Positions 13,101 through 34,837 of a stretch of DNA of 54,557 bases are shown in pieces. Every line of letters begins with the position of its first letter. Positions within the stretch are counted from its first letter, which is position 1. A program made the translations under genes and the position numbers. The notes under the pieces are model-generated. The model saw nothing but the letters and a program-made list of their open reading frames with translations. It searched no databases and had not been told where the DNA came from. Origin of the DNA: Patescibacteria group bacterium (GTDB taxonomy: Bacteria; Patescibacteriota; Patescibacteriia; Patescibacteriales; UBA12465); assembly GCA_022710685.1 (NCBI GenBank), contig JAKLGM010000004.1, forward strand, positions 1 to 54,557, given 5' to 3'.

Positions 13101-14309
13101 TTATTGGATCACCAGCTTTTTGCTAGTGACGCCGCCGTCAGCTTCCACTCTTATGAAGTAGACTCCGGGCGACAATGAACTGCCATCAAATTTCAAGGTT
13201 TCGTTGCCCACGAATCCCTGGAACACATTTACGACCCGTTGCCCAACGAGGTCGTAGACAGCAACATTCACGTTGGTAGAAGTAGTAAACGAGAGATTAA
13301 CGGACACCTGGTCAGCGGCCGGATTGGGATAAACGGAAAAGTCTTGCAGGGACTGGATTTCTTCCACGCCAGAGGTAAGGTCCATCTTGAGAATGAAGCC
13401 CGAATTGCCTACGCAGTAAACACTGGCTTTATTATCATTGGGAGCGCAAATTCCTCTTGTGCCTGTATTAGGATGAATATTCTCCCAGGTTGATCCATTA
13501 TAACGAACTATACCGCAAGTCATACCGGCTGCCAAAATGTCGGAATTACTAAATCCAAATAGTCCCTGAACAGTTCCATTATTATATTCCTGAGTCAAGC
13601 TGCCACTAGTCTTATTGTATTTGTAGAGGCAGGTGCCAGAGATATAAAAATTTTCATTATCGGGAGACCAAATGCCATTTAAAACTGCAGGACCATTAAT
13701 TCGCTTTACTTCGGTAAAAGTGCTGCCATTATAATGCAAAATTATGCCATCATTAGGGCTGGTGTTATCGGTTCCGACAAAATATAAGTCAGATCCAGAT
13801 GTGCCCCATATTCCGCCAAACGCAAACGTAGCATAAGTGTTGTAAACCGAAGTCCAGGAGGAACCATTATAATGGTAAATTCTACCGTAATTTCCGCTAA
13901 CATAAATATCATTAGCTGAAAAGGCAATAATCTCATCGAGATAATTGGTGGTACCAATATTTGAAACGGTAGCGGAAGACGATCCGGTATAATGAACGAC
14001 TGTCCCGTTGTTGCCGACAGCCCAAGCATCAGAAGGACCAACAAAAGCAACGTCATACAAATAATCGGTAGTAGAAGTGTTAATTAATGACCAATCAGAT
14101 CCATTACATTTTATCATGACTCCTCCTTCGCCAACGGCTAAGCCATTATTGGCATCAAAGAAATCAACCGCATAGAGATCATTGGTGTTAGGGTCGGGAT
14201 TAGTGGGATATTCAAAAGCGATTCCTTGGGCAAAGGTAAATGGGCAAACAGTTATCAGCAAAATGACAAAAAAGGCCTTAATTTTCGAGAAAAAACTGAC
14301 TTTCTTCAT
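13101..14309 (-). CDS. Secreted beta-propeller protein with T9SS type A sorting domain
   Basis: A 402-residue exported protein: signal peptide (~1-27, ending TFAQ), then about seven ~40-residue repeats of the form 'D-x-Y-x-V-G-x-x-G-x-I-x-H-Y-N-G-S-x-W' making a beta-propeller (res ~30-315), then a C-terminal domain (325-402) with YPNPA, VYDLVGQRV, LSPGVYFIRV and a KKLVIQ end. The last part is the type A sorting domain that directs Bacteroidetes proteins through the type IX secretion system. No T9SS component gene lies in the window. It has its own promoter and terminator and is monocistronic, which suits a transferred gene. Ligand unknown. If T9SS is absent, the protein may simply be released or retained by another route. 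Confidence 0.85.
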   Translation of the reverse strand: MKKVSFFSKIKAFFVILLITVCPFTFAQGIAFEYPTNPDPNTNDLYAVDFFDANNGLAVGEGGVMIKCNGSDWSLINTSTTDYLYDVAFVGPSDAWAVGNNGTVVHYTGSSSATVSNIGTTNYLDEIIAFSANDIYVSGNYGRIYHYNGSSWTSVYNTYATFAFGGIWGTSGSDLYFVGTDNTSPNDGIILHYNGSTFTEVKRINGPAVLNGIWSPDNENFYISGTCLYKYNKTSGSLTQEYNNGTVQGLFGFSNSDILAAGMTCGIVRYNGSTWENIHPNTGTRGICAPNDNKASVYCVGNSGFILKMDLTSGVEEIQSLQDFSVYPNPAADQVSVNLSFTTSTNVNVAVYDLVGQRVVNVFQGFVGNETLKFDGSSLSPGVYFIRVEADGGVTSKKLVIQ

Positions 14310-14362: not shown

Positions 14363-14391
14363 AACCTATCACAAATTATTATATTTGTCAA
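14363..14391 (-). promoter_or_regulatory. Promoter of the beta-propeller gene
   Basis: Minus strand TTGACA (14391-14386), 17-bp spacer ending in TGA, TAGGTT (14368-14363). The perfect -35 overlaps the TGA stop codon of the giant gene (14388-14390). Leader of ~46 bases. Confidence 0.6.
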
Positions 14392-17300
14392 TAAATACAT
14401 CCGGCACAATTAAGCCCAGTAAAACCAGCGGAGCAACAACCAGCCGTATCGGGACAAGTGCTGGCCAAACCAGCACACTTATAGAAACCCCAATTATCCA
14501 CCGCTTTTATTCTGATCTGATATTGCTGGTTAGCTCCTTGTGGATTGTAATAGTGGATAAAACGATAATTAGTGGAAGGATCAATCTGCGTGGTTGTAAC
14601 GTTGCCATTACCATTATCATCAAAATCAACAAATAATTCTCCGACTGGGAGTTGCTCCGAATCAATATCAACACCAAAACTAACAGTATAAAAGTCGGAA
14701 GTATTTATGGGATACAAACCATTAACTGGAACTATCTCAAGGCCCTCACTATTCCTTACTTTTATATTATATATTGTTGGGTACACACCACAGAAGCAGG
14801 TATTGCCAGGCACTGGATTACTTAAACAGGAAGAGGCACGGGCGCTACCATTACCGTTACAAGGAGGAATAGAGCCGGAACAATTAATACCAGCCATACA
14901 ATCATAGGAGTAGCCAGAAACGCCGCTACCCTTTAAGAATATCTGTTTTAAATTACTGGCTGGATATGTGAATGTTCCTGAATGGCCATATGGACCCTGA
15001 ACCAAAGCATTAACACTTAAGTTAGTAGAAACATATTTACACATATCAACTCCTGCATTTAATTGGCCTCCGTTATTACAACTATAAGGCCAGCCGGCCT
15101 TACCAGCCCCACTACCAACCTGGTAACCAGGAACATAGTCATTACCGCTAGAGCCGTAAGGGGCTTTATCCAAAGATCGGTTATAGTTGTTCATAGCACC
15201 AGTGAAAAACGGAGAAGTGGTTGCCGTAAAAGAAGTAAGTCTTTGCACCCAAGGTTTATCCATCTTAAGGAACTTGGTACATTTAGGAGTAAAGGAAGAA
15301 CTTAATTTAAATGTCCCGAGCGGCGGATTGTCATCACGGTCTATTAAATTAGTTCCAACTTCACTATCGTGTGAATGACCGGAAGTGCCATTATATTGGT
15401 AATAACCAGCGCTATTAACTAATATCCAGGCATCCCAACCTCCCGGGCCGCCAGTATATGATCCACCAGCGACATAAGCGTTAGATGTATTCCAAGAGGG
15501 CCAAGTTGAATTTGTGTATTGAGGGTTTGTGTAATAAGAAGCGCAACCGGCAGTATCCCCAATATTAGCACTAGCGTCATTAGGATCACACATAGCTAAG
15601 ACACCAATCCCTTGCCCCATTGGTATACAATAATAATCAGTACTACACTTATTATTACCTTCGCGATGCCATCTCATAACAAACCTCTCATATCCGGTCG
15701 GACAATCTTGTTGACCCTGAAAACCAGACCAGAAAGAGCAACCATTATTAGAATCATCAACGGCTGTTAATAAGAAAGCTGATCGTCTTTCCGTAAACTC
15801 AAAGTTCGTGCTCATCTCAGCGCAATAATAAGAATCACCATAAATGCTGCTAAAACCAGAGCTAGCGCCAGTAGAGGCTTGGCTGCTCTTCACATTTTCA
15901 ATTGGATACCACATCAAACACACATCAGGATTCTTTGGATCATGCTCTAAACAATAACCATAAATACCATTGCTAACCACGCTTTCCGCCGCACTCTTAC
16001 AGGTCAAGCTGTCCTGCTTCGGATATAAGCGACACTCTTTAGCAATATAAGAATTATCAGCTACTTCTAACACTGGCTCTATATTGATGTCGTCAAAATA
16101 GACCTCGTTGCCTATTGATGCACTACCGCTACCAGCAGACAAAATTATATTTAAATCATTAAAATTAGCTTGAGGCACAAACTTATACACCTTTCTCTGC
16201 CAGCCAGAACCGGAAGTAATATACATCCAGCCAAAATTAGAACCAGTTGAAGGTTCGGCGAGAACAGAGGCCCCCTTCCCGTTAGAATCATCAATATTAA
16301 CCAAGAAGTTAATATAATATTGTCTGCCTTGTTTAAACGGATATGATGCCCTTATTACCACGCCGCCGCTAGAATACGGCTGGTCTCTATCAATCATCAG
16401 AAGCCCTTTACCATGAGCTGGATAAGAAATTGTAGTAGAAGGAATCAGTTCAGACGAATCAGACATTATATAAGCATTGGCGTTAGAGGAGTTCCAAGTA
16501 GTCCAAGTACCAGGGGAATTGTAAACACCAGAACCAGGGAAATCCGGACCATTCTCAAAATCCCAATGCATATTTGGATCCTCGCCCACCTCACTCATGT
16601 TAGACAGATAATAATAGTCTAATTTAGAGTAGCCGGAAATATTCCTATCAGCGCCGGAATTAAAGGTGTGCTGAACTTCATCATTCTTAATAAAGCTCTG
16701 GCAACGACCAAAGTCATTAAGCTTGTCGCATTCGCCTAAGGCATAACAAGTTTCCTCGCCAGTATTAGGATCAATACCGATACTCATGCAAGCCAACCAC
16801 CTGGAACAGATACGGTTAGGTTGGACCTTAATTAATACATTAGAATCGCAAGTAGAATCAACTAGCGGATCGCAAGTCGCAGGCAAACCAGCAGAATAGG
16901 AGCCGCCATAGGCCCGCCAATTAGACTTAACCAAACCATTAGCCCCTTCCTGGCGTCTTTCATTGAATAAGATACAGCCATTGTCAAAGTTTACCTCACC
17001 ATTACAAGATTGCTTGTCAACCTTGCTTGATAACCGGTAGTCCACTACGGTGCCACGGATATTAATCTTCTTGCCATTAGCGCCGCCATAGAGGGTACAG
17101 CTAGTATTATTCAACGAGCTAAACAGGATGTTCGTGTTAGGGGCGCTAGCTCCGATTACTATTTGGTTAGTAGCCGGTGCAAAAGAATTATCAGCCTGCA
17201 GCTGTCTAATTGAAGCCGGGCAATTCAATATCACCGGAGTGATTGAGGCGGTAGTTTCAACCGATAGGCTATACAATTTATTCTTTAACAAATAGACATC

Positions 17301-20300
17301 CTGCTTCTGCAAAGTAAGGGTCGTGCCACCAGATGAAATCGTACCCGAACTCCAGCCATCGCCACTAATTCCATCACTATTAATATCACTCCAAGTTGGA
17401 TTTACTACAATATTTGGCGAGAATTCGCTTACCGGATCAATATATTCAGTACAAGCCGAGGCTTTGTATTCGCACAAACCGACATTACTGCTTGGTTGAT
17501 AAACTAAATTACCGCCGCCCAGACCAATAGTCTTCAAAGAATCAACCGGGCAAAGATAATCGTTCTTGTCCAAAATACATTTACCTAAACCGCAATCTTC
17601 ATCCTTAGTACAAAGCTTGTTCTGGGTCTCAATTATATTGCCAACTAAATCAACATTGATCCCTGGGTTAACATCCGGATCAAAATCGCAACGCTTCACC
17701 GGCTTCTTATACCATTTCTTCGGCAGGTTCATACCGCTGGCATTCAAAGACTGACGCCATTCGCAGACATTCTCGCCCGGATCCTTAAAGTAGCTAGGAG
17801 AGCCATCCAGATATTTCCATTCTTGGCAACCGACTTCACCCTCGCCGCAAAGAGTGGTGGCATATTTGTCCGGGTTATTCTTGACGTAAACATCTTGATA
17901 GATATTTTGGACAGAAACGTCAACGTTGGTGTTAACCTGGTCGCCTAAACGGCTACAGCCTTTATCCACGGCCGTACACTGATTTTTGACTTTGCCTTTA
18001 TTATTCTCATAACGGACATAGGCCATCCGGTCAGCCGGAATCTCAATACAATCCGGGCCATCGCTCGGGTCACAATTATTATCCGGGGTGCCATTTTCTT
18101 GATAGGCTTCCTGCTCGGGATTGGCCGAGTTGCCGGTAATAACCATCAATTCGCAACCAACCGCGTCATCAGTGCACAAATTGGTGAAGTTACGGAGATA
18201 GTTATAATTGTTAGAATTATCCGTATAGGATTCGCAACCAATATTATAGTTAATACCCTGATACTGGTCGAACATGTCATAGTAGCAAGAATTCGGAGTG
18301 GACCAGCTATCCTTAATTAGGTAGTAACGATCGCTAATTTCATTTAAAACTATATTATCCAACAAGACGTTGCCACTGGCGCTGATAATCAAAGCTTCCT
18401 GCTCAGTCACCTCATGGTCTAGAACGTCTAGGTTGGCCTGATAGACGCGCCATTCGCCATTACCGACTACGCTAACCGAAGAATTCTGTTCGCCGGTCTC
18501 AAATTGGGACGCCACAGAGCCATTGGCCAAATAGATGTTAATGCTAACATTGCTGTTGGCTTTAGCTAAGAATTTTACGGTGTAGGCCTTGCCCTGACTG
18601 ACATTATCAACATTGATGCCGATACCATGTCCTGGCAGAGCGGTGCTAGTCTGAGCTTTGACGCTCTTAATGATCTTCTGCCACAAACCCTTGACCGTGG
18701 CCAACACTTTGTTGGCGCCATGGCTATTGCTAGAAACGCTAACGGCCTCCAAATCAAAGTTGGGAACATTAGAACAATTGTTGCTAACAAAATTATATTG
18801 TAAAGAATGGCCATTACGATTAATGGAGTCGACATTCAAAGCGGAAGAATCGGCGCAATAACTGGCCCAGGCCTTATTGTCTTCAAAGCTAAAGCTCTCC
18901 ATAGACCGGACATTGTTGCCATAATTACCATTGTATTCGCGGCAACCATTTTCCGCCGCAGTACAAGTCAGACCCTCACCCGGAATAGCTTTGTAGATGC
19001 AGCCATTCTGGTTGCTGTCCCAAACGCCACGATTTTTACAAACATTACAGACACCATCCTGAGCATTCCAGTTCTTGTCCGAACCGGTACAAGCCGCCTG
19101 GCTCAAAGTTTCGTCTACCGGAGCTTCAGTCAAGCGATATGGGTGGCAGTTGTCAGCGCAAGTTATAGTAGTGGAATATAAAGCATAGAAAATAGCGCCG
19201 GCCTTATTATAGAATTGACGGCAATCAGAATTATAGGCCGCATCATTAGCCGGAGTATTATAGATAACTGGATCGCAAACGGTCACGCCGCCGTCAATCT
19301 GGTTGTTATTGCCGTCAAAAGATCCGGAAGTTAACACCGGCTTGTCATTAGACGCCTGAAGATTAAAGGGCTGTAATTGATAACCGGCAGTACCGATATT
19401 GCCCCAACTATAGAAAACGCCGCAAGCCGCTTCTTCCGGCTTCACGCATTGGCGCAGATAAGCATAATATTCCTTGGCTTCTCCGCCCTGAACCACTTCG
19501 TCTAAATTGGTAAACTCAGAACAGCCAGCCGCAACGGCCCGGCATTTTCTGGCAGTAGCAGGGATAAAGACGGCAGCCTGTTTGTAGTTAAAGACGCCTT
19601 CCTTCTGGACATAATAATCATAACCGACGCATTCGGAACGGCAAGCATCGGTCGCGGTAGTCTTGGCCGGAACTGAGAAATTATTTCTCACGGAAGTATA
19701 AAAATTACAACCGGCTTCTTCTCCGTTACATAAGCGGGCATAACCCAAGCATTTAGCCGGAGCCGTGCTCTTTAAACGGTAATCCGGATTCAAGCCGGTA
19801 GGATTAACATAGCAATCCGCCGCCAAATAATTCGGAATCAATTTTTGGTAAGCTAAGTTGGTAGTATAATAATCAGAATAAGTAGTGCCTTGTTTTGCCA
19901 TTTCCACCTTGACCCGGTCAATAACGCAAGCCGAGGAATTGACGGCAAAATAAATTTCATTGCTAGAAATATTGATCGGATAGTTATAGGATACGTAATA
20001 ATACTGCCAGTCTGGGCCAGAATATAACGGAGCCTCTCTGTCATCTACGGACGAAGCGCCCAATATCAAGCTATCGCCATCATTACAATCCTTAGCATAG
20101 AAAGAAACAGTATAAACCTGGCCGGCGATATTGTAGTCGTTGGGACCGACTGCTAAACGGCGCTTGAATGGCTCGCTTAATTTCAGGGCGATATTGCTGA
20201 AATAGCCCGGGGAGGTAGTGGTAGCATTATTCGGAGCCACTACTCCGGCCAAATCAATATTGTTAGTCCAATCGCCGGAACTTAAATCACCCTCCATGTC

Positions 20301-22484
20301 GCCATTATGGATGAAGTTATGGCCGGCATCAGGCTGGATGCGGATAAACTCGTTACAGCCTTCTACCTTCTTGTCGCAAGTTTCTACTTTTTTAGAAAAA
20401 TAAATCTGCTGCAGCGGCGCCCAAGCCACCTTGTCAGTGCTAGTGGTATAAGTGCCATAGCTGGAATAGGGGCGGCAACCCGCATTATCAGAAGTACAGG
20501 TGCTATAGTCTAAAGTATTTTCCAGATAGGAAGCTATCTTGCCGTTTGGTTTGACAAAATTCTGGCAAGTATTGAAAACTGCATCGCAAGAGTCTGAATC
20601 AAAATCCCAGGTCCGTTTTTCTTCAGTACAATAGCCATAAGCTTCGCAGGTGCCGTCAGTCTTTTCTTTAATACAGCTTTGTTCATCAGCACAGTAATCC
20701 GGATTGCGGGTAATAATTACCTGGCCCGGAATCGTCTGGGTGCTAATACCGCCATTGCCATCATCGGTCTCAATTTTTTGTTCCGGCACCAAAGTCTTTT
20801 CTAAAATCTGACCGCCGGCACCTTGGCGCTTACAATAATTCAAAGGGGCTTTCAAAACCCAGTTCGGGTCAACTAATCCTTGGCACCAAGCCGCTGGGGT
20901 AAAGCCTTGGCTGAAATCATTATAATTATCATCAGGATCAAAGCAGGAAACCATATCCAACATGGTAACGTTGACGTTGTTCTCTTCCGCCTTTAACAAA
21001 GCAGTTTCCCAACCGACCGGAATGATACGGAATTTTCGCAGGATCAAAAGGTTGCGCAAAGAATAACCTTGGTTATAATCAACGTCCCGTTTTAAGCGCC
21101 AATTCTTCTGCAAGAATCCTTCATTCAAAGCTTCGGCCACAGTCTTCCGATCTTCAATGCCCTGACGGAATTGGTCATCAATCACGCAATTAGTCGCTCC
21201 CATATTCTGCGGATCCGGACAAGTCGCTAAATCGCCCAAAATACTATAATCACCGCGCGTATCAAATTTAGGCTGGATGACTTGAGAGAGATTAGCCTGG
21301 ACCGAAGACATGCCCTTGAAACTGTTAGGATCGCAGTTAGGATCATCCAAACAAGGTGCGCCGCTATTAGTGGTGGCAACGCTCACCGGTTCGCATTTGC
21401 ATTCTTCATTACAAGTATAGCCCGAAGCGCACTTAGATTGATTTTGATCACCGCCTTCCACGTCGCATTTGTTGAGCGGCGTACGATCGCAAACCGTATA
21501 AGTACCGTTAAACCAATCCTGAAAATATTCATCATTGATAGCCGCTTTGTCAGCGCTATAAAGACCTAAAGTCAAAGCCGACAATGCCGCATTCGGATTG
21601 CCGGATAATAATTTCGCTTTAGCTTTATTAAAAGCCGTAATGGCTAATTGGTTCAAAAAGACGTTGGCCGCATCCACTAATGTATCGCCGGTAAACTTAC
21701 CGACGTTCTGCATCAATGAGGCATCAGCCTGCTTCTTCTGTTCTTCCGCTTCACCCGGAGCGCCTTTTAACTTGCCGCCGATATCGCGGACATCCAGCCA
21801 GCCTTTTTTGGCACTCAATTCCTCCTGCGATTTGTTGTAAGCAGTAGAGGTTGATTCTTTCAAGCCGCTCATCACTGTCAAAGCCATATTGACGCCATTG
21901 CCGGTAGGATCAAACATCGTGCTCAAGTCCTTCAAGAACGTCGGGCTGCGCATGGAAGCATATTTTTCATTGATATCATCTTTCCAAGCCTTAGTCATCT
22001 TGCTGAAGGTACAATAGGCATCCTTCGGACGGCTATACCCAGCTGCGTCAACCAAGCCCAAGCCGATGCTTAGTTTGACATTCAAATCGGGTTCGCAAAA
22101 ATTTACTCCAGCCGCCTGGGCATACTGATCGATAAAATCACCAGCCGCATTGTCAGCAATATCTTCCAGATAAGAGCCCCAGCCTTTTTCCACGAATAAT
22201 GGCTTCTGACCTTCGCCGCCGGAACCGATATAGGTGGCCGTATCATAGGCTATCTTATTCAAGGCTTTGGTAACCGCTGATTTCAAAGCCTTAGACCCCA
22301 CTTTAGTGATGGCGTCTTTCAACTTAGTCTTCAACTGGGTCCAAATACCCATAAAGACGCCAGTCGGACCGCCGATGACGTCTTGAGATTGGGCCTTGCT
22401 GGCCGGGATGAGAGAGAAAACAAAAACCAAAACTAGTACAAACGATACTATTTTGGAATAATGAAAATGGCTTGGCTTTTTCAT
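14388..22484 (-). CDS. Giant exported cysteine-rich modular protein (~2,698 aa)
   Basis: Not a recognised family as a whole. Starting at the ATG at 22484 (an in-frame TTG at 22511 would only add nine residues), it has a signal peptide ending near PASKAQ, a helical N-terminal region of ~300 residues, then a long region with roughly 100 cysteines in total. At least a dozen copies of a short motif C-x(5,6)-[GA]-C-x-x-[FYWL] recur between ~15535 and 20515. Four beta-sandwich, carbohydrate-binding-like modules are interspersed (about 19895-20335, 18335-18905, 17035-17420, 16075-16571), and the C-terminus has an Ig/PKD-like segment followed by a compact EGF-like knot. The product is probably a disulfide-stabilised surface or secreted structure, perhaps an adhesin. 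The helical N-terminal region resembles, from memory, proteins near type IV secretion genes in this radiation. Preceded by a thrombospondin-3 gene, probably cotranscribed. Confidence 0.8.
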   Translation of the reverse strand: MKKPSHFHYSKIVSFVLVLVFVFSLIPASKAQSQDVIGGPTGVFMGIWTQLKTKLKDAITKVGSKALKSAVTKALNKIAYDTATYIGSGGEGQKPLFVEKGWGSYLEDIADNAAGDFIDQYAQAAGVNFCEPDLNVKLSIGLGLVDAAGYSRPKDAYCTFSKMTKAWKDDINEKYASMRSPTFLKDLSTMFDPTGNGVNMALTVMSGLKESTSTAYNKSQEELSAKKGWLDVRDIGGKLKGAPGEAEEQKKQADASLMQNVGKFTGDTLVDAANVFLNQLAITAFNKAKAKLLSGNPNAALSALTLGLYSADKAAINDEYFQDWFNGTYTVCDRTPLNKCDVEGGDQNQSKCASGYTCNEECKCEPVSVATTNSGAPCLDDPNCDPNSFKGMSSVQANLSQVIQPKFDTRGDYSILGDLATCPDPQNMGATNCVIDDQFRQGIEDRKTVAEALNEGFLQKNWRLKRDVDYNQGYSLRNLLILRKFRIIPVGWETALLKAEENNVNVTMLDMVSCFDPDDNYNDFSQGFTPAAWCQGLVDPNWVLKAPLNYCKRQGAGGQILEKTLVPEQKIETDDGNGGISTQTIPGQVIITRNPDYCADEQSCIKEKTDGTCEAYGYCTEEKRTWDFDSDSCDAVFNTCQNFVKPNGKIASYLENTLDYSTCTSDNAGCRPYSSYGTYTTSTDKVAWAPLQQIYFSKKVETCDKKVEGCNEFIRIQPDAGHNFIHNGDMEGDLSSGDWTNNIDLAGVVAPNNATTTSPGYFSNIALKLSEPFKRRLAVGPNDYNIAGQVYTVSFYAKDCNDGDSLILGASSVDDREAPLYSGPDWQYYYVSYNYPINISSNEIYFAVNSSACVIDRVKVEMAKQGTTYSDYYTTNLAYQKLIPNYLAADCYVNPTGLNPDYRLKSTAPAKCLGYARLCNGEEAGCNFYTSVRNNFSVPAKTTATDACRSECVGYDYYVQKEGVFNYKQAAVFIPATARKCRAVAAGCSEFTNLDEVVQGGEAKEYYAYLRQCVKPEEAACGVFYSWGNIGTAGYQLQPFNLQASNDKPVLTSGSFDGNNNQIDGGVTVCDPVIYNTPANDAAYNSDCRQFYNKAGAIFYALYSTTITCADNCHPYRLTEAPVDETLSQAACTGSDKNWNAQDGVCNVCKNRGVWDSNQNGCIYKAIPGEGLTCTAAENGCREYNGNYGNNVRSMESFSFEDNKAWASYCADSSALNVDSINRNGHSLQYNFVSNNCSNVPNFDLEAVSVSSNSHGANKVLATVKGLWQKIIKSVKAQTSTALPGHGIGINVDNVSQGKAYTVKFLAKANSNVSINIYLANGSVASQFETGEQNSSVSVVGNGEWRVYQANLDVLDHEVTEQEALIISASGNVLLDNIVLNEISDRYYLIKDSWSTPNSCYYDMFDQYQGINYNIGCESYTDNSNNYNYLRNFTNLCTDDAVGCELMVITGNSANPEQEAYQENGTPDNNCDPSDGPDCIEIPADRMAYVRYENNKGKVKNQCTAVDKGCSRLGDQVNTNVDVSVQNIYQDVYVKNNPDKYATTLCGEGEVGCQEWKYLDGSPSYFKDPGENVCEWRQSLNASGMNLPKKWYKKPVKRCDFDPDVNPGINVDLVGNIIETQNKLCTKDEDCGLGKCILDKNDYLCPVDSLKTIGLGGGNLVYQPSSNVGLCEYKASACTEYIDPVSEFSPNIVVNPTWSDINSDGISGDGWSSGTISSGGTTLTLQKQDVYLLKNKLYSLSVETTASITPVILNCPASIRQLQADNSFAPATNQIVIGASAPNTNILFSSLNNTSCTLYGGANGKKINIRGTVVDYRLSSKVDKQSCNGEVNFDNGCILFNERRQEGANGLVKSNWRAYGGSYSAGLPATCDPLVDSTCDSNVLIKVQPNRICSRWLACMSIGIDPNTGEETCYALGECDKLNDFGRCQSFIKNDEVQHTFNSGADRNISGYSKLDYYYLSNMSEVGEDPNMHWDFENGPDFPGSGVYNSPGTWTTWNSSNANAYIMSDSSELIPSTTISYPAHGKGLLMIDRDQPYSSGGVVIRASYPFKQGRQYYINFLVNIDDSNGKGASVLAEPSTGSNFGWMYITSGSGWQRKVYKFVPQANFNDLNIILSAGSGSASIGNEVYFDDINIEPVLEVADNSYIAKECRLYPKQDSLTCKSAAESVVSNGIYGYCLEHDPKNPDVCLMWYPIENVKSSQASTGASSGFSSIYGDSYYCAEMSTNFEFTERRSAFLLTAVDDSNNGCSFWSGFQGQQDCPTGYERFVMRWHREGNNKCSTDYYCIPMGQGIGVLAMCDPNDASANIGDTAGCASYYTNPQYTNSTWPSWNTSNAYVAGGSYTGGPGGWDAWILVNSAGYYQYNGTSGHSHDSEVGTNLIDRDDNPPLGTFKLSSSFTPKCTKFLKMDKPWVQRLTSFTATTSPFFTGAMNNYNRSLDKAPYGSSGNDYVPGYQVGSGAGKAGWPYSCNNGGQLNAGVDMCKYVSTNLSVNALVQGPYGHSGTFTYPASNLKQIFLKGSGVSGYSYDCMAGINCSGSIPPCNGNGSARASSCLSNPVPGNTCFCGVYPTIYNIKVRNSEGLEIVPVNGLYPINTSDFYTVSFGVDIDSEQLPVGELFVDFDDNGNGNVTTTQIDPSTNYRFIHYYNPQGANQQYQIRIKAVDNWGFYKCAGLASTCPDTAGCCSAGFTGLNCAGCIY
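15535..20515 (-). repeat. Short cysteine-pair repeats within the giant protein
   Basis: Encoded copies include (by position) CTSDNAGCRPY (~20490), CDKKVEGCNEF (~20360), CRAVAAGCSEF (~19530), CVKPEEAACGVF (~19430), CTAAENGCREY (~18950), CTDDAVGCEL (~18160), CTAVDKGCSRL (~17960), CGEGEVGCQEW (~17840), CEYKASACTEY (~17460) and CNGEVNFDNGCILF (~16990). The common form is C, five or six residues, G or A, C, two residues, aromatic or large aliphatic. Spacing between copies is irregular because beta-sandwich modules are inserted among them. Confidence 0.75.
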
Positions 22485-22513: not shown

Positions 22514-23206
22514 TTATTCAGCACTAGTATTGGAGCCGATAGTCTCTTTATAGCTCTTGATGAGTTCTTCGTCTGTAATGCCATCCAAAACACTTTTCTC
22601 CATGCCGCTATCTAAAAGCATCTGGCGCAAAACTGAAGTATCGGCCTTCCCGGCCATCATATCATTAAGTAATTGCTGCTCTTCGTCGGTTAAATCTACA
22701 CCGCTGATGCTTCCGGTGTCCGTAGTAGTTTGTTCCAAGAGATCATCCGGAGAAGCAACGGTAGAATCGTTAGAATTATCAACGACAGCCTGAGAGCAGT
22801 TCTGCCCGGCCGGGCAATTCGGATCAGTGCCGTTTAAAATTTCTTCCTTGTCGGTAAAACCATCGCTGTCGCTGTCTTCAATATAAGGCGAGGTCATATA
22901 AACATTGGCTTCATCGGAATCACTCAAGCCGTCGTTGTCACTATCCATCTTAGTTTTGTCAGTCTCGGTCACAGTTTGACCGGCTTTATTTTTTTCTAAA
23001 TTAGCAATCTTTTTGTCATAGTCCAAAGGACCATAAATATTGCTGCGAAATTGTAAAATGCCAAAAACCATTATCAAAATGGTAAAGGCGCCCAAAGAAA
23101 ACAAAGAGATTTTTTGCTGCTTAGTTAAAAGCTTAGGAGAAGGATTGCTCTCCAAATTATAATCCTCACCAGTTTCTGGTGGAAATTGATTTTGTTCATT
23201 ATTCAT
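22514..23206 (-). CDS. Membrane protein with thrombospondin type 3 calcium-binding repeats
   Basis: A 230-residue protein with a cytoplasmic N-terminus, one membrane helix (~34-53) and an outer part with two thrombospondin-3-like repeats, DSDNDGLSDSDE and DSDSDGFTDKEE (about res 88-125), each an acidic DxDxDG calcium loop, followed by a Cys pair (CPAGQNC) and an acidic helical tail (LTDEEQQLLNDMM...). Calcium probably stiffens the outer stalk. It ends 29 bases before the giant cysteine-rich gene and is probably cotranscribed with it, so it may anchor or assist that protein. Promoter overlaps the end of ksgA. Function beyond this is unknown. Confidence 0.75.
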   Translation of the reverse strand: MNNEQNQFPPETGEDYNLESNPSPKLLTKQQKISLFSLGAFTILIMVFGILQFRSNIYGPLDYDKKIANLEKNKAGQTVTETDKTKMDSDNDGLSDSDEANVYMTSPYIEDSDSDGFTDKEEILNGTDPNCPAGQNCSQAVVDNSNDSTVASPDDLLEQTTTDTGSISGVDLTDEEQQLLNDMMAGKADTSVLRQMLLDSGMEKSVLDGITDEELIKSYKETIGSNTSAE

Positions 23207-23214
23207 ATGGCTTT

Positions 23215-23246
23215 ATTATACCATAAAACCGGAAAAATTGGCAAAC
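23215..23246 (-). promoter_or_regulatory. Promoter inside the end of ksgA, driving the thrombospondin-3 and giant genes
   Basis: Minus strand TTGCCA, 18-bp spacer ending in TGG, TATAAT (23220-23215): extended -10 that coincides with the ksgA stop. Predicted start is ~2 bases before the ATG at 23206, i.e. an almost leaderless message. Confidence 0.6.
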
Positions 23247-24055
23247 AAATTCAGCCAATTTTCCAGGGATAATTCCTGCGCCCTAATCTTAGGATTATGA
23301 CCTGATTTTACTATGATATTTTCCACTTCCGCCATGGGTAAATGCAAGCCATTGGCCAGATTATTTTTGAGCATCTTGCGCTTGGCGCTATAGGCGATTT
23401 TAAGGAGGCGAAAAAACAGTTTGGCGTCAACTTGGGGCTGATTAGCCGAAGCTTTTCGGACAATTTTGATTAAAGCGCTGTCCACCTCTGGCTGAGGCCA
23501 AAATGCCGTGGGCGGCACTAAAGAAATAATTTCCGCCTCAGCGTAAAATTGGACCGACAAAGCCAAAAGACTCATTTGCGGCGGCTGGGCTACGATGCGC
23601 TCGGCCACTTCTTTCTGCAGCATCAAGACCATAGTCTCGGGCGGTTGAGCTGAGGACAAAAATTTGCGGAGAAAAATAGAGCTGATGTTATAAGGCAAGT
23701 TTGCTACTATCTTGTAATTTTGACCGGCGAAAAAATCATCGCGGAAATTCAAAATATCTTCGTTGATGATAGAAACATTTCTAATACTCTTAGACAAAAA
23801 TCCGGCTGTCAAAATCCCGGCCAGCTTCTTGTCCAGCTCCACGGCAATGACTTTTTTGGCAGTTTTAGCTAGTTTTTCGGTCAAAAATCCCAATCCAGGA
23901 CCAACCTCTAGCACCGTGTCAGCTTTAGTAACTTGAGCCGCTAAAATGGCTTGATCATAATATTCTTCCTCCACTAAAAAATTCTGGCCCTTAGATCGCT
24001 CCGGGCGGACGCCATAGATGCGCGACAGTTCCAAAGTTTTATTTAATAAGTTCAT
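23216..24055 (-). CDS. rsmA: 16S rRNA dimethyladenosine transferase RsmA/KsgA
   Basis: Dimethylates two adjacent adenines in the 3'-terminal hairpin loop of 16S rRNA (A1518/A1519 in E. coli) during small-subunit maturation. The 279-residue protein has SKGQNFLVEE at the N-terminus, the SAM-binding motif I EVGPGLGFLTEKL (~50-62), the acidic VELDKK, the catalytic NLPYNIS motif (~120) and the C-terminal PPTAFWPQPEVDSALIKI segment. Length is typical. Follows leuS with a 44-base gap containing a hairpin. Confidence 0.95.
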   Translation of the reverse strand: MNLLNKTLELSRIYGVRPERSKGQNFLVEEEYYDQAILAAQVTKADTVLEVGPGLGFLTEKLAKTAKKVIAVELDKKLAGILTAGFLSKSIRNVSIINEDILNFRDDFFAGQNYKIVANLPYNISSIFLRKFLSSAQPPETMVLMLQKEVAERIVAQPPQMSLLALSVQFYAEAEIISLVPPTAFWPQPEVDSALIKIVRKASANQPQVDAKLFFRLLKIAYSAKRKMLKNNLANGLHLPMAEVENIIVKSGHNPKIRAQELSLENWLNLFANFSGFMV

Positions 24056-27304: not shown

Positions 27305-27895
27305 TTAAAATATTTTTACTTCAGTCCCAACCTCCGCCCAATTATAGATCAGCTGTGCCGGGCCGACACCAAGCCGGATACAGCCATGCGATGCCGGTTT
27401 GCCCAAACTATCAGCCCCTTCTTTCTGCCCCCTACCCCACTCTGGCAATTCGTGGATTCCCACCCCCTGGGCGCTTAAACCGAGCCAATAGGGCATATAA
27501 ACGCCATAACTCTGGGATTTCGGCCGGGGCAATTTATTTTTGACGACAAAAGTGCCTTTTGGCGTCGGGGTGCTTTTCTTCCCGGTAGAAACCACATACT
27601 CGCCCATATCAACGCTACCTAAAAAATATTTTAACTTCTGGGTCTTGGTATCAACTTCAATCCGTTTTTTTAGTTTAGCTCCCTGGCCGCGCAAAGGATC
27701 ATAATAATTTTTGACTTCTAGCCCATCCGAATAACCATCAGCATCAGAGTCGGGATCGTCTATTTTAGTCTGAAACTTGGCCTCCAAAATATCGCTCAAA
27801 CCATCAGCATCTAAATCCAAATCAGCCGCCTGAACGGCGGTGAAAAAAAATAAACTAAGCGAACAGATTAACAGCGATAAAAGACGCTTAAACAT
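27305..27895 (-). CDS. L,D-transpeptidase (YkuD) with N-terminal thrombospondin-3 repeats
   Basis: YkuD enzymes make 3-3 peptidoglycan cross-links or attach proteins to the wall. The 196-residue protein has a signal peptide (1-23), two acidic calcium-type loops (DLDADGLSDILE and DSDADGYSDGLE, ~25-60), then the catalytic domain: GIHELPEW and, 20 residues on, SHGCIRLG (catalytic Cys in HGCIR). The thrombospondin-3 part replaces the LysM or other wall-binding domain often found. First gene of ldt-xth-leuS; divergent from the dsbA-like gene. Two cell-wall genes and an unrelated repair/translation pair sharing one operon is usual for this compact genome. Confidence 0.9.
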   Translation of the reverse strand: MFKRLLSLLICSLSLFFFTAVQAADLDLDADGLSDILEAKFQTKIDDPDSDADGYSDGLEVKNYYDPLRGQGAKLKKRIEVDTKTQKLKYFLGSVDMGEYVVSTGKKSTPTPKGTFVVKNKLPRPKSQSYGVYMPYWLGLSAQGVGIHELPEWGRGQKEGADSLGKPASHGCIRLGVGPAQLIYNWAEVGTEVKIF

Positions 27896-27926: not shown

Positions 27927-27955
27927 ATTATAATTTAATCAGCCTTTTTTAGCAA
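27927..27955 (-). promoter_or_regulatory. Promoter of ldt-xth-leuS
   Basis: Minus strand TTGCTA (27955-27950), 17-bp spacer, perfect TATAAT (27932-27927). It overlaps the oppositely directed promoter at 27915-27923, so the two probably compete for polymerase. Confidence 0.65.
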
Positions 27956-28683
27956 TGGCTCTAGAAGATAGAATCGCCGTTTTACGGCAGAAATTAGCTA
28001 ATCCGCCGCACCCTCATTGGTATAAAACCTGGTGGGGAGTTTTGATGTCTCTCCTCTTGTTTTTTCTAATCAGTTTTATCCTGGCTAGCGCCGCCTATGT
28101 TTTCAAAACTGCCAGTGACATTAACAACAACCAGAACTCTTTGGCCTTGTTAGAAAAAACCCAGCAAGAGCGCGCCATCATTGAAGGCCAAAACAATTAT
28201 TACCTTGGCACCACTTCTCCTAAAGTGGTGATTATAGAATTTTCCGATTTTGCCTGCCCCTACTGCAAAGCCAGCCATGAAGCTGTCCGAGAGTTAGGGC
28301 TGAAATACAAGAACGAAATCAAAATTATCTACCGCGACTTTTTGGGCCACAGCAACTCCCTGGACCTGGCTTTAGCCGGACGCTGTGCCGGCGAGCAGAA
28401 TAAATTCTGGGCCATGCACGACAAACTATTTTTGAATCAAGACAATATAACCCTGAGTTCTTTACCTATCCTAGCGCAACAGATAGGCGTCAGCACCAGC
28501 ACTTTTAATAATTGCCTTAAATCGCAAAAATACCTGCCCTACATCCAAGCTGATATGGCAGCAGCCGAAAAGATGAAAATCACCGCTACTCCCACCTGGA
28601 TCATCAACGGTTATCTGGTAAAAGGAACTCTAGACCGAGATGGCCTGGACAGCATTATAAAAGAAATATTAAACATTAAATAA
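27955..28683 (+). CDS. Membrane-anchored DsbA-like thiol oxidoreductase
   Basis: A 242-residue protein: short cytoplasmic part, one membrane helix (~29-50), then a thioredoxin-fold DsbA-type domain outside the cell. The active site is CPYC (101-104, in FSDFACPYC) and the cis-proline loop is TATPTW (~212-217), as in the BdbD/DsbA_4 group that introduces disulfides into exported proteins. It leads the operon that also holds a cysteine-rich pilin-like protein and a cysteine-containing hydrolase-peptidase fusion, which are plausible substrates, and the giant cysteine-rich protein is a few genes away. The por gamma gene starts 1 bp after its stop. No DsbB-like partner is seen in the window. Confidence 0.88.
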   Translation: MALEDRIAVLRQKLANPPHPHWYKTWWGVLMSLLLFFLISFILASAAYVFKTASDINNNQNSLALLEKTQQERAIIEGQNNYYLGTTSPKVVIIEFSDFACPYCKASHEAVRELGLKYKNEIKIIYRDFLGHSNSLDLALAGRCAGEQNKFWAMHDKLFLNQDNITLSSLPILAQQIGVSTSTFNNCLKSQKYLPYIQADMAAAEKMKITATPTWIINGYLVKGTLDRDGLDSIIKEILNIK

Positions 28684-30882: not shown

Positions 30883-30912
30883 GCTTTGTTTCAAAAAATA
30901 ATTCAAATATTT

Positions 30913-32175
30913 ATGAAGAGATTTTTATTTAAATACAAAAAGCTGGTCCTGGGATTTTTCTTGGTTGCTGTCCTAGCTTTGATATTAGCTGCTCCGGCTC
31001 TAGCCCAAGATGACGACGAAGAAGTAACGCCAGTAAAATTTAATCCACAAGTGACAATTCCGGGATCTATCTTCAAATCCGGCGGATCGGTATTACTAGA
31101 AAATAACACGGCGCCAATCGCCAAATATATCAGCGCTATCTACAACTACGGTGTCTCTATCGTCGGCATTTTAGCATCCCTGATGCTCATGATTGGCGGC
31201 ATTATATGGCTCACCGCCGCCGGCTCCAGCAGCAAGATAGAACAAGCCAAGGAATTCATTTTTAGCAGTTTGACCGGCATGGCTCTTCTGTTAGTGGCCG
31301 TCATTCTGCTCCGCACTATTAACCCAGCGCTCGTAGAATTCCGCAACCCAACTCTCACGACTATTGACAAAGTAGATCCCTGCTGTAATTCCCTGCGCGG
31401 ACCGACGTTTGAGGTAACTGTAACCCAAACGCCGGAAAGATTAATCTATAATTGCGCCCCGCCCAAAGAATTAGACGGCGATGATGCTGAGGTAGAAAAA
31501 TGTACGGGTAAATCTAAATGCCAAATTTCTCCCGAAAGCACCGAAACCGCCCCTAAATACGGCTGCGTTGACCCAGATCGATATACTTGCTGTGAATATG
31601 AGTCTGACATAGGTGACGACGAAGAGTCTCTGTTTAGCTGTATGTCAGTTGAATCTGCTAAAGGCGAAACCTGTCCTACACCAGCAGAAAAAGGAATGGG
31701 CATGGTAACTTACTCTTCTAACAGGCAAATTGAAAAATATTATTGCCAGACAGGCGTAATTGTCGGATTGAAGGTAAACGGCTGTAAGGTAGATTGCAAT
31801 GGCAAAGACAAAGGAGAACTTTGCAATGGCTTGTCAGACGGCGGCCGCTGTTATGGCACTGACGACCTTTTGACTTGTCGCTTTGGCGGCGCCAGAAAAT
31901 CCCTAGGAGATATCTGCGGCAACACTGACGCTACAACCAGATGCATGCCCGGCGGCTATAGCGTCTGGTCAGGTGATCTTTTTGAGGGTCACTGCGATGA
32001 CAGTCGTTGTTTGGATCACGATAACACCGTCACTAGCGGCGAAGAATGCGACGCCGACGGCGAAACTGAACTAGCCTGCTGTTATTTTGCGCCAGACGAA
32101 GGCTATCTATCTTCTTGTTCTGAAAAAGATATATACAAAAAATGGTATCCAAAAGAAACCGGCACTGCTAACTAA
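30913..32175 (+). CDS. T4SS_pilin-type membrane protein with cysteine-rich outer domain
   Basis: Start chosen at ATG 30913 because a signal peptide begins there (MKRFLFKYKK, hydrophobic core, APALAQ cleavage region ~27-32); a TTG at 30886 would add nine residues. The 420-residue product then has the double-helix T4SS_pilin (VirB2/TrbC-like) module at ~65-142: KYISAIYNYGVSIVGILAS, MLMIGGIIWLTAAG, then FSSLTGMALLLVAVILLRTINP. The remaining ~270 residues hold about 24 cysteines, including CC pairs (PCCNS, TCCEY, ACCYF), and no known fold that I can name. Typical VirB2 pilins are ~100 residues with no such domain. It may be a membrane scaffold for a disulfide-rich outer module. It sits between por alpha and beta. 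Confidence 0.75.
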   Translation: MKRFLFKYKKLVLGFFLVAVLALILAAPALAQDDDEEVTPVKFNPQVTIPGSIFKSGGSVLLENNTAPIAKYISAIYNYGVSIVGILASLMLMIGGIIWLTAAGSSSKIEQAKEFIFSSLTGMALLLVAVILLRTINPALVEFRNPTLTTIDKVDPCCNSLRGPTFEVTVTQTPERLIYNCAPPKELDGDDAEVEKCTGKSKCQISPESTETAPKYGCVDPDRYTCCEYESDIGDDEESLFSCMSVESAKGETCPTPAEKGMGMVTYSSNRQIEKYYCQTGVIVGLKVNGCKVDCNGKDKGELCNGLSDGGRCYGTDDLLTCRFGGARKSLGDICGNTDATTRCMPGGYSVWSGDLFEGHCDDSRCLDHDNTVTSGEECDADGETELACCYFAPDEGYLSSCSEKDIYKKWYPKETGTAN

Positions 32176-33106: not shown

Positions 33107-34837
33107 ATGGAAAAGAAAAACAAAAAAGCCTACTTCTACACTGGAAGAATATTATTATTTTTCTTGTTTTTTTTGTTGGCAGCAAGGCCTACTCAGGCCG
33201 CAACCATCACAGCCGATGGCCAGGTTGACTGCCCCTCAGTAACACCAACAGAAATTTTGGTTTATTTCCATGGTTTAGTTTGGCCAACAAGCACCCAAAA
33301 TGGAGACCAGTGGACAGTGCAAGAAAGCATTAGCACTTTTTATACCGAACTTAATAAAATAAGAGCGTCTCGTCCTGGAGTTGCCGCTGCCCACTACAGC
33401 TATGGCGCCAACGCTCAAGCGGCAATCAACAACGTTAGATCTCAGTGCAATATATCCGGAGTCCTGCCCATAACTCTAGCCGGCCATAGCGCTGGTGGCA
33501 GCTCTCTGAAATCAGCCGGGGCAATCGCCGACAAGATAATAATACTAGATGGTATTTACTGGTCACCAACCCCGCTTTATAGTTATTGCTCTAAAATAAG
33601 GCTAGTGGATGGATACTCCACTCAAAGCAACACCACCCCCCTAGTAACAGAGTGCAGCGGTAATGCTAGTTTTAAATACGTAAAATACCAAGATATTGGA
33701 AACCCTGGCCATTTTGCTATCAGAAAATACTTGAGTACTTTTTATTTGGACTCTGAAATAACTGCGGGCGGAACAGCCGGAGCAACAACAAAGCCTAAAA
33801 AGCCATTTGAACTATTCAATCCACTCTTAGACCTGCAAGTCAATATCCCCGGGATAGAAAAATTAGCCTCAGAAACTCCGGCGGCCTGCACTACCAGCGA
33901 TGACAACATTACGTCTTGCTCTCTCCCCTGGATTTCTGTCTATATCAAGGCAATATATAATTATTCCATGAGCATCGTAGGAATCTTAGCTGCTTTTGTG
34001 ATAATGATTGGGGGAGTTATTTATCTAACATCTACTGGCAATGCCAATCGGATTAAGAGCGCGCAATCCTGGATTACTGGCGGACTGACCGGACTGTTAA
34101 TAATGTTTACCTCCTATGTACTCCTAAACGAAATTAATCCGGACCTTATTAAATCTAATCCGATAGACCTACAGATTGTTCGAGATGAATTTGTACAAGA
34201 TCCGAATGATATAAATCTTGGAGATCTGCCTGTAGGCTCAGGCGCCGGATCTGGTGAAGTCTTAAATGATGGAGTTCCTTTTTTTAACCAATGTAATGCT
34301 TCTTGGAGAGATTTTCCTTACGACGGTAAATCCCCCTATCAGTGCGGCGGCGGAGATCCAGGATACTCAGTCGACGGCGCCAAAGTAAAAGGAAACACTC
34401 TATGCTCCTCGTCTTGCGGAGTAAATAGTGCTGCTATGGTATTAAAATATTATGGGTATGAAGTTACTCCTCCTCTTTTGGCTAATTGGTTAGTCGACAA
34501 TAAATATAGAGGTACAAATGGCACTTGTTCAGGAACATCCTTCCAGGGTATACAAGATGTTATTAAAAACTATGGACCCGATATAAAAAGTGAGTATGTC
34601 AAAGCAAATAATTATGTCGCGGCGTTACAGGCTGGTAAAAAGATAATATACTTAATGAGGGGGCCGTGTCCATTAAAAAAAAGTCAAGGTGGCCACTATG
34701 TAGTTTTAACTGGCGTAAAAACCGGATCCGGTAACTCTATTATTAATATTAATGATCCATTCAGAGGCCAAAGAAAACAAGCCAGCACAAGCGATATAAA
34801 TACTTGTTGGGCTGGGGGCATGGCTTTTTATCAATAA
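33107..34837 (+). CDS. Fusion: alpha/beta-hydrolase-like domain + T4SS_pilin segment + C39-like peptidase
   Basis: A 576-residue exported protein with three parts. After a signal peptide or anchor (~13-31) comes an alpha/beta-hydrolase-like region (~45-215) with VYFHG (oxyanion loop), nucleophile elbow GHSAGG (Ser128), candidate acid Asp148 or Asp168 and NPGH (His202). Next is a T4SS_pilin double-helix module (~275-345: YIKAIYNYSMSIVGILAA, GGVIYLTSTGN, GGLTGLLIMFTSYVLLNEINP). Last is a papain-like C39 domain (~385-576) with SSCGVNSAAM (Cys437), GGHYVVLTG (His530) and NDPF (Asp550). It is last in the operon and ends 1 bp from the convergent rnhA. Plausibly a cell-surface hydrolase or wall or peptide processing enzyme held by the pilin-type anchor. 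I know of no described protein with this order of domains. Confidence 0.8.
   Translation: MEKKNKKAYFYTGRILLFFLFFLLAARPTQAATITADGQVDCPSVTPTEILVYFHGLVWPTSTQNGDQWTVQESISTFYTELNKIRASRPGVAAAHYSYGANAQAAINNVRSQCNISGVLPITLAGHSAGGSSLKSAGAIADKIIILDGIYWSPTPLYSYCSKIRLVDGYSTQSNTTPLVTECSGNASFKYVKYQDIGNPGHFAIRKYLSTFYLDSEITAGGTAGATTKPKKPFELFNPLLDLQVNIPGIEKLASETPAACTTSDDNITSCSLPWISVYIKAIYNYSMSIVGILAAFVIMIGGVIYLTSTGNANRIKSAQSWITGGLTGLLIMFTSYVLLNEINPDLIKSNPIDLQIVRDEFVQDPNDINLGDLPVGSGAGSGEVLNDGVPFFNQCNASWRDFPYDGKSPYQCGGGDPGYSVDGAKVKGNTLCSSSCGVNSAAMVLKYYGYEVTPPLLANWLVDNKYRGTNGTCSGTSFQGIQDVIKNYGPDIKSEYVKANNYVAALQAGKKIIYLMRGPCPLKKSQGGHYVVLTGVKTGSGNSIININDPFRGQRKQASTSDINTCWAGGMAFYQ

Follow-up and report, generated by a model that had tools for sequence, protein, structure and literature searches.

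Partner recognition and holding by the ultrasmall Patescibacteria is a central open question. In S. epibionticum, the sole species tested genetically, epibiotic growth requires the type IV secretion system (T4SS), and a review also describes a VirB5-VirB6 stalk (PMC12857230). A survey of Patescibacteria T4SSs found no PrgB-like adhesin and does not, in its accessible part, describe the protein reported here (PMC12102498). Large cysteine-rich exported proteins with a proposed attachment role have already been reported in Peribacteria (PMC4736985); therefore, the general idea of such a protein is not new. Here we analyzed a giant gene in a 54,557-nucleotide stretch of Patescibacteria DNA (the window; contig JAKLGM010000004.1, which is contig 31 of an 885,608-base metagenome-assembled genome, MAG), and found that its product is a near-universal protein of the class ABY1 rather than an orphan, that the gene belongs to a T4SS locus, and that no part of the protein is shared more widely than its N-terminal domain (GNTD). 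The source genome is a Ca. Falkowbacteria MAG of class ABY1, and the organism is a tiny, probably host-dependent bacterium. No earlier description of the giant family turned up in the literature searched (incomplete coverage, preprints excluded); within that literature, what appears new is the family itself, its class-wide occurrence and its location in the T4SS locus.

The giant protein and its distribution in ABY1

The giant gene is a single open frame without internal stop on the minus strand, from an ATG at 22484 to a stop at 14388, and the plus strand of the same interval contains many stops. An earlier note, made from the sequence alone, had placed an exported protein with about 100 cysteines at these positions; the gene is indeed intact there, and its product of 2,698 residues contains 104 cysteines (3.85%, versus 0.94% over the other 30 open reading frames (ORFs) of at least 150 residues in the window). 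The repeated cysteine-pair motifs that the note described are also real: the sequence has 13 adjacent C-x6-C pairs where chance would give 3.1, and none of 10,000 shuffles reached 13. In agreement with the claimed export, the N-terminus resembles a Sec signal, with a hydrophobic stretch and, after it, an almost invariant A33. A hydrophobic N-terminal segment was found in 79 of 81 giants, any other transmembrane-like segment was found in three of the 81, and the window giant has neither a membrane segment besides the export signal nor an LPXTG motif. No name for the whole protein was obtained from Pfam, NCBIfam and PDB sequence searches, as the note had anticipated: Pfam gave a sub-threshold match to CBM_4_9 only, the NCBIfam and PDB searches gave none, and neither a known adhesin family nor an F-type TraN family model was matched in Pfam or NCBIfam.

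Homologues were present in 54 of 60 relatives and in 180 of 192 ABY1 genomes. In an alignment-based scan of contigs, which returned 182 stretches encoding a relative (the best 80 of the 182 were kept), the nearest named relatives were Ca. Falkowbacteria and the further ones Kerfeldbacteria, Uhrbacteria and Kuenenbacteria, all of which we take to be assigned to ABY1. A single-protein scan of genome contigs with the giant gave no matches, and a single-protein search of a phylum sample with the giant itself found no homologue outside ABY1. For complete homologues the medians are 2,735 residues and 101 cysteines (87 ORFs, not de-duplicated); homologues are usually 2,500-3,800 residues long. Because single open frames of this size recur in tens of independent genomes, the giant is not a composite of mis-assembled frames, an error that the note had named as one possible refutation. 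A 26,141-residue open frame listed for one genome (G136) was rejected as a run of masked N. Separately, one contig titled Deltaproteobacteria (L156) carries an ABY1-type giant and is probably misbinned. VirB4 was present in 14 of 18 ABY1 genomes without the giant. At most of the 12 giant-less loci examined, the T4SS contig stops at or before the expected place of the giant, and one such end carries a fragment of 1,296 residues and 42 cysteines; therefore, true absence of the giant is rarer than the counts imply. When 32 giants were aligned, conservation reached at least 80% for 59 of the 104 cysteines, and many were invariant. The cysteine core and the cysteine blocks (Table 1) are the best-conserved parts of the protein, and the beta-sandwich modules are the most variable.

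The T4SS locus and the N-terminal domain

In ABY1 the giant gene usually lies in a compact block, the chromosomal T4SS locus of Patescibacteria, arranged as ksgA, TSP3-repeat protein, giant, (c8), VirB6, c2, PrgI, TrsD and VirB4. Across the taxonomic order and the class, the giant is followed by a membrane protein of ~200 residues, the VirB6-like protein is polytopic, c2 is present once or twice, and a VirB8-like candidate comes after VirB4. VirB4 (P-loop_TraG) and PrgI were named by Pfam in this genome, the name VirB6 derives from PF04610 in 7 of 43 family members, and the TrsD-like and VirB8-like names were given by size and position after PMC12102498. The TSP3 gene lies directly upstream of the giant in 29 of 34 ABY1 loci, and VirB6 lies at most four genes downstream in 22 of the 34, several of the others ending at a contig edge. 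The spacing is short: the giant follows the TSP3 gene after a median of 15 bp (n = 69), and the T4SS gene that comes next is a median of 42 bp beyond the giant.

The earlier note had set the N-terminal ~300 residues apart as a helical domain that could be the conserved core, and this domain is indeed separate, predicted to be helical, and more widely conserved than the rest. A profile of residues 1-330 matched nine genomes outside the class, and a second profile, into which some of those nine were included, found the GNTD in at least 28 sampled out-of-class genomes, where it occurs in exported proteins of about 280-1,150 residues. All 19 out-of-class matches that were not in the profile and had not been seen before occupy the same slot, adjoining the VirB6 gene or one to three genes from it (the GNTD was scored on the ORF itself in 17 and assigned by match position in two, L186 and L190). 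This place next to virB6 is kept by the GNTD in many families of the phylum, also where the ectodomain differs completely. At four non-ABY1 loci (L163, L169, L183 and L188), a second large exported ORF of 791-1,287 residues with up to 34 cysteines (for example L163:10954-13329 and L169:12052-15915) lies between the GNTD protein and VirB6. These ORFs are possible class-specific ectodomains, and their position suggests that the docking domain and the ectodomain are separable. In the model of residues 34-770, which is of middling quality, the GNTD is all-helical with pLDDT of roughly 50-80, and Foldseek and VIA gave no clear PDB fold match for it. Among 27 GNTD copies no VirB5 Pfam match appeared at E up to 5, and searches of Pfam and of PDB sequences returned no other match.

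The ectodomain and neighboring genes

Both a confident model and fold matches bear out the several beta-sandwich modules that the note had described. The AlphaFold model of residues 690-1700 (pLDDT 85.1, pTM 0.74) matched carbohydrate- or receptor-binding beta-sandwiches and reelin repeats in Foldseek. Compared by VIA, residues 1191-1384 align with CBM22 (Z 13.6, rmsd 2.3 over 135 residues) and residues ~714-864 with CBM16 (Z 12.5, rmsd 2.6 over 127 residues); in these models, modules 1 and 2 are carbohydrate-binding-module (CBM) folds. Module 2 of the window scored 25.6 bits against Pfam CBM_4_9, for which the curated cut-off is 25.9, and among the homologues 47 of 58 copies of module 2 and 24 of 60 copies of module 1 matched this family at E <= 0.01. 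Profile comparison within the giant revealed repeated beta-sandwich units at ~783-863, 1293-1383 and 2052-2137, and repeated cysteine-block units at ~631-716, 917-994 and 1411-1518. Residues 413-613 are mostly above pLDDT 90 in the model of residues 34-770, and no clear PDB match was found for them by Foldseek or VIA; we claim no new fold because this model is long and mixed. The cysteines of the giant probably form disulfides, and the membrane-anchored DsbA-like protein of the window (Table 1), whose gene is conserved near the giant within the family, may be what oxidizes them.

Table 1 Coordinates of the giant gene, its parts and nearby genes in the window
Feature	Position	Strand	Basis
Giant exported protein, 2,698 residues, 104 Cys, complete gene with stop	14388..22484	-	ORF and homologues
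Signal peptide, residues 1-33, nearly invariant Ala at 33	22386..22484	-	Hydrophobic segment, alignment
GNTD, helical (predicted), residues 34-305, two near-universal Cys (130, 158), phylum-wide at T4SS locus	21570..22385	-	Profiles, model
Variable Cys-containing linker, residues 306-390, Cys not conserved	21315..21569	-	Alignment
ABY1-specific Cys core, residues 391-720, most conserved part	20325..21314	-	Alignment and model
Beta-sandwich module 1, residues 714-864, CBM16-like fold, least conserved between genomes	19893..20345	-	Model, fold match
Cys block 2, residues 889-1190, C-x6-C pairs, most Cys invariant	18915..19820	-	Alignment, profile comparison
Beta-sandwich module 2, residues 1191-1384, CBM22/CBM4_9-like fold	18333..18914	-	Model, fold match
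Cys block 3, residues 1400-1690	17415..18287	-	Alignment, profile comparison
Further beta-sandwich module, residues ~1955-2140, homologous to modules 1 and 2	16065..16622	-	Profile comparison
Variable C-terminal part, residues 2240-2698, without membrane segment or LPXTG	14391..15767	-	Sequence, alignment
TSP3-repeat protein (TSP3_bac), one transmembrane segment, 230 residues, directly upstream of the giant	22514..23206	-	Pfam
ksgA, conserved flank of the T4SS locus	23216..24055	-	Neighborhood comparison, PMC12102498
Membrane-anchored DsbA-like thioredoxin, CPYC, candidate oxidase for the giant's Cys	27955..28683	+	PF13462, PF01323
T4SS_pilin domain fused to a Cys-rich tail, possible partner of the giant	30886..32175	+	Pfam, composition
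T4SS_pilin-like segment (below cut-off) and C39-type peptidase domain, possible partner	33107..34837	+	Pfam

The T4SS_pilin protein at 30886-32175 has a tail of ~280 residues; with 5.6% cysteine, this ORF exceeds every other one of at least 150 residues in the window. The ORF at 33107-34837 also has an N-terminal hydrolase-like part, as judged by eye. Directly downstream of the giant, on the minus strand at 13101-14309, lies a beta-propeller protein with a type IX secretion system (T9SS) type A sorting tail (Por_Secre_tail, E 1.3e-15), which is unexpected in Patescibacteria; in another genus a propeller protein with a similar-looking tail occupies the same place (L038:4369-5607), and L134 holds a relative. 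Near the giant block, an L,D-transpeptidase (YkuD) with N-terminal TSP3-like repeats is encoded on the minus strand at 27305-27895.

Proposed role and comparison with known systems

We propose, with confidence about evenly balanced between yes and no, that the giant is a disulfide-stapled, multi-CBM surface-contact protein or adhesin of the chromosomal T4SS of ABY1, docked via its GNTD. Its place in the T4SS locus suggests that it serves this system in contact or adhesion, and being near-universal in the gene block of a cell-to-cell transfer machine makes it a good candidate for the part that makes contact outside. The conserved scaffold with variable modules, the CBM folds, the nearby DsbA-like gene and the virB6 slot support this proposal. 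In the mechanism we envisage, Sec would export the giant, and a DsbA-type oxidase would close the conserved cysteine pairs, giving a stiff scaffold. The GNTD would then keep the protein at the cell surface, docked on the inner-membrane platform of the T4SS; we propose docking by the GNTD because the giant has neither an LPXTG motif nor a membrane segment besides the export signal, so that something else must anchor it. The docking partner would most likely be the VirB6-like protein encoded just downstream, as the phylum-wide slot suggests. The rest of the giant would form an extended chain, its disulfide blocks presenting the variable CBM folds, and these, to judge from their modeled fold, may bind glycans on a partner cell or particle. 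In ABY1 the ectodomain is fused to the putative docking domain, and in some other Patescibacteria a separate exported protein lies beside that domain.

Several observations weigh against this proposal, and some of them favor a T4SS-independent role, in which the giant is a surface coat or a particle-binding protein for polysaccharide (lake snow or envelope glycans) and its gene only happens to have stayed in the conserved block. The block is divided between two contigs in this MAG, the T4SS part lying on contig 23 behind a groEL-like gene, an arrangement that is identical on the T4SS contig of a same-genus genome, and the giant is separated from the T4SS genes at a few other loci. A single-contig genome of 96% completeness (G180, locus L074) retains ksgA, the TSP3 gene, the giant, VirB6 and c2, and VirB4 was not found anywhere in it. 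The giant and VirB4 are both absent from two ABY1 genomes versus 0.7 expected, which is not significant (p = 0.14). Neighboring genes are no proof of one machine, since ksgA is equally close and yet a housekeeping gene, and the GNTD model is of middling confidence and has no fold match. Carbohydrate binding by the modules is putative, as the fold alone is no proof of sugar binding. CBM folds would suit the polysaccharide-binding alternative as well. Cells of two ABY1 families were imaged unattached or on lake snow particles (PMC9166423). Of the attachment role suggested by the earlier note, surface binding fits the CBM-fold modules, and a host as the specific target, rather than particles or glycans in general, is a hypothesis to which this imaging lends no support. 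Its cell-coat role has gained no specific support: no SLH (S-layer homology) or other described S-layer domain was matched in Pfam and NCBIfam, a result that covers described S-layer types only. Against the T4SS-independent role stands the GNTD slot, kept beside virB6 across many families of the phylum despite wholly different ectodomains, and we regard this role as rather unlikely.

A bolder reading of the GNTD, which we offer tentatively and hold to be slightly more probable than the T4SS-independent role, is that it is an undescribed phylum-wide T4SS part in the VirB5 role on VirB6, each class having its own ectodomain and ABY1 a giant disulfide-stapled multi-CBM recognition arm. If so, the giant arm would be the missing contact element of Patescibacteria T4SSs. 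Taken further, the GNTD could be a functional VirB5 equivalent that builds the stalk or tip complex upon VirB6. The giant would then be more than a tethered adhesin and would cap a VirB2-like pilus or channel as its tip. An exported helical domain encoded next to virB6 in 19 of 19 independent matches would suit this, as VirB5 docks on VirB6 elsewhere (PMC12857230), and so would the VirB2-like pilins reported in Patescibacteria (PMC12102498) and the T4SS_pilin proteins encoded in the window. A folded protein of 2,700 residues at a pilus tip would be unusual, however, and the absence of a VirB5 Pfam match also argues against it; the middling GNTD model gave no clear fold match. We consider this version as doubtful as the T4SS-independent role. 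That the T4SS secretes the giant as an exceptionally large substrate or effector would agree with its gene sitting in the T4SS locus, yet it is highly improbable given the giant's own N-terminal export signal, its conserved copy in nearly every genome, and the lack of any enzymatic or toxin domain in the Pfam and NCBIfam searches. For the docked surface-contact protein that we prefer, the consequence is that a near-universal giant with a cross-class docking domain and CBM-type modules names a concrete adhesin candidate.

Among described proteins, Giant1-5 of Apilactobacillus kunkeei are likewise very large and exported to the surface, have parts predicted to bind glycans, and come from a small genome; they differ in their beta-solenoid and helical rods and their paralogous array, and no T4SS link is described for them (PMC12863079). 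The large cysteine-rich extracellular proteins of Peribacteria, another class of Patescibacteria, are exported like the giant and have a proposed attachment role. In contrast to it, they comprise about 20 paralogues, including a 14-gene cluster, and neither a T4SS locus nor a shared N-terminal domain is described (PMC4736985). Modules 1 and 2 share the fold of CBM4/9, CBM16 and CBM22, but in the giant they are strung between putative disulfide blocks and are not attached to an enzyme. Like the GNTD, VirB5, TrwJ and IcmX, which form a stalk or tip on VirB6, are exported helical domains with a gene next to virB6, whereas the GNTD has no VirB5 profile match, is larger, and is fused to a 2,400-residue ectodomain in ABY1. 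PrgB and the other T4SS adhesins of Gram-positive bacteria (pCF10) resemble the giant as large Sec-exported surface proteins encoded with VirB6, PrgI and VirB4 genes and with a proposed contact role. Compared with PrgB, the giant has no LPXTG anchor and no sequence similarity, and is instead a probably cysteine-stapled, chromosomal protein that is near-universal in its class.

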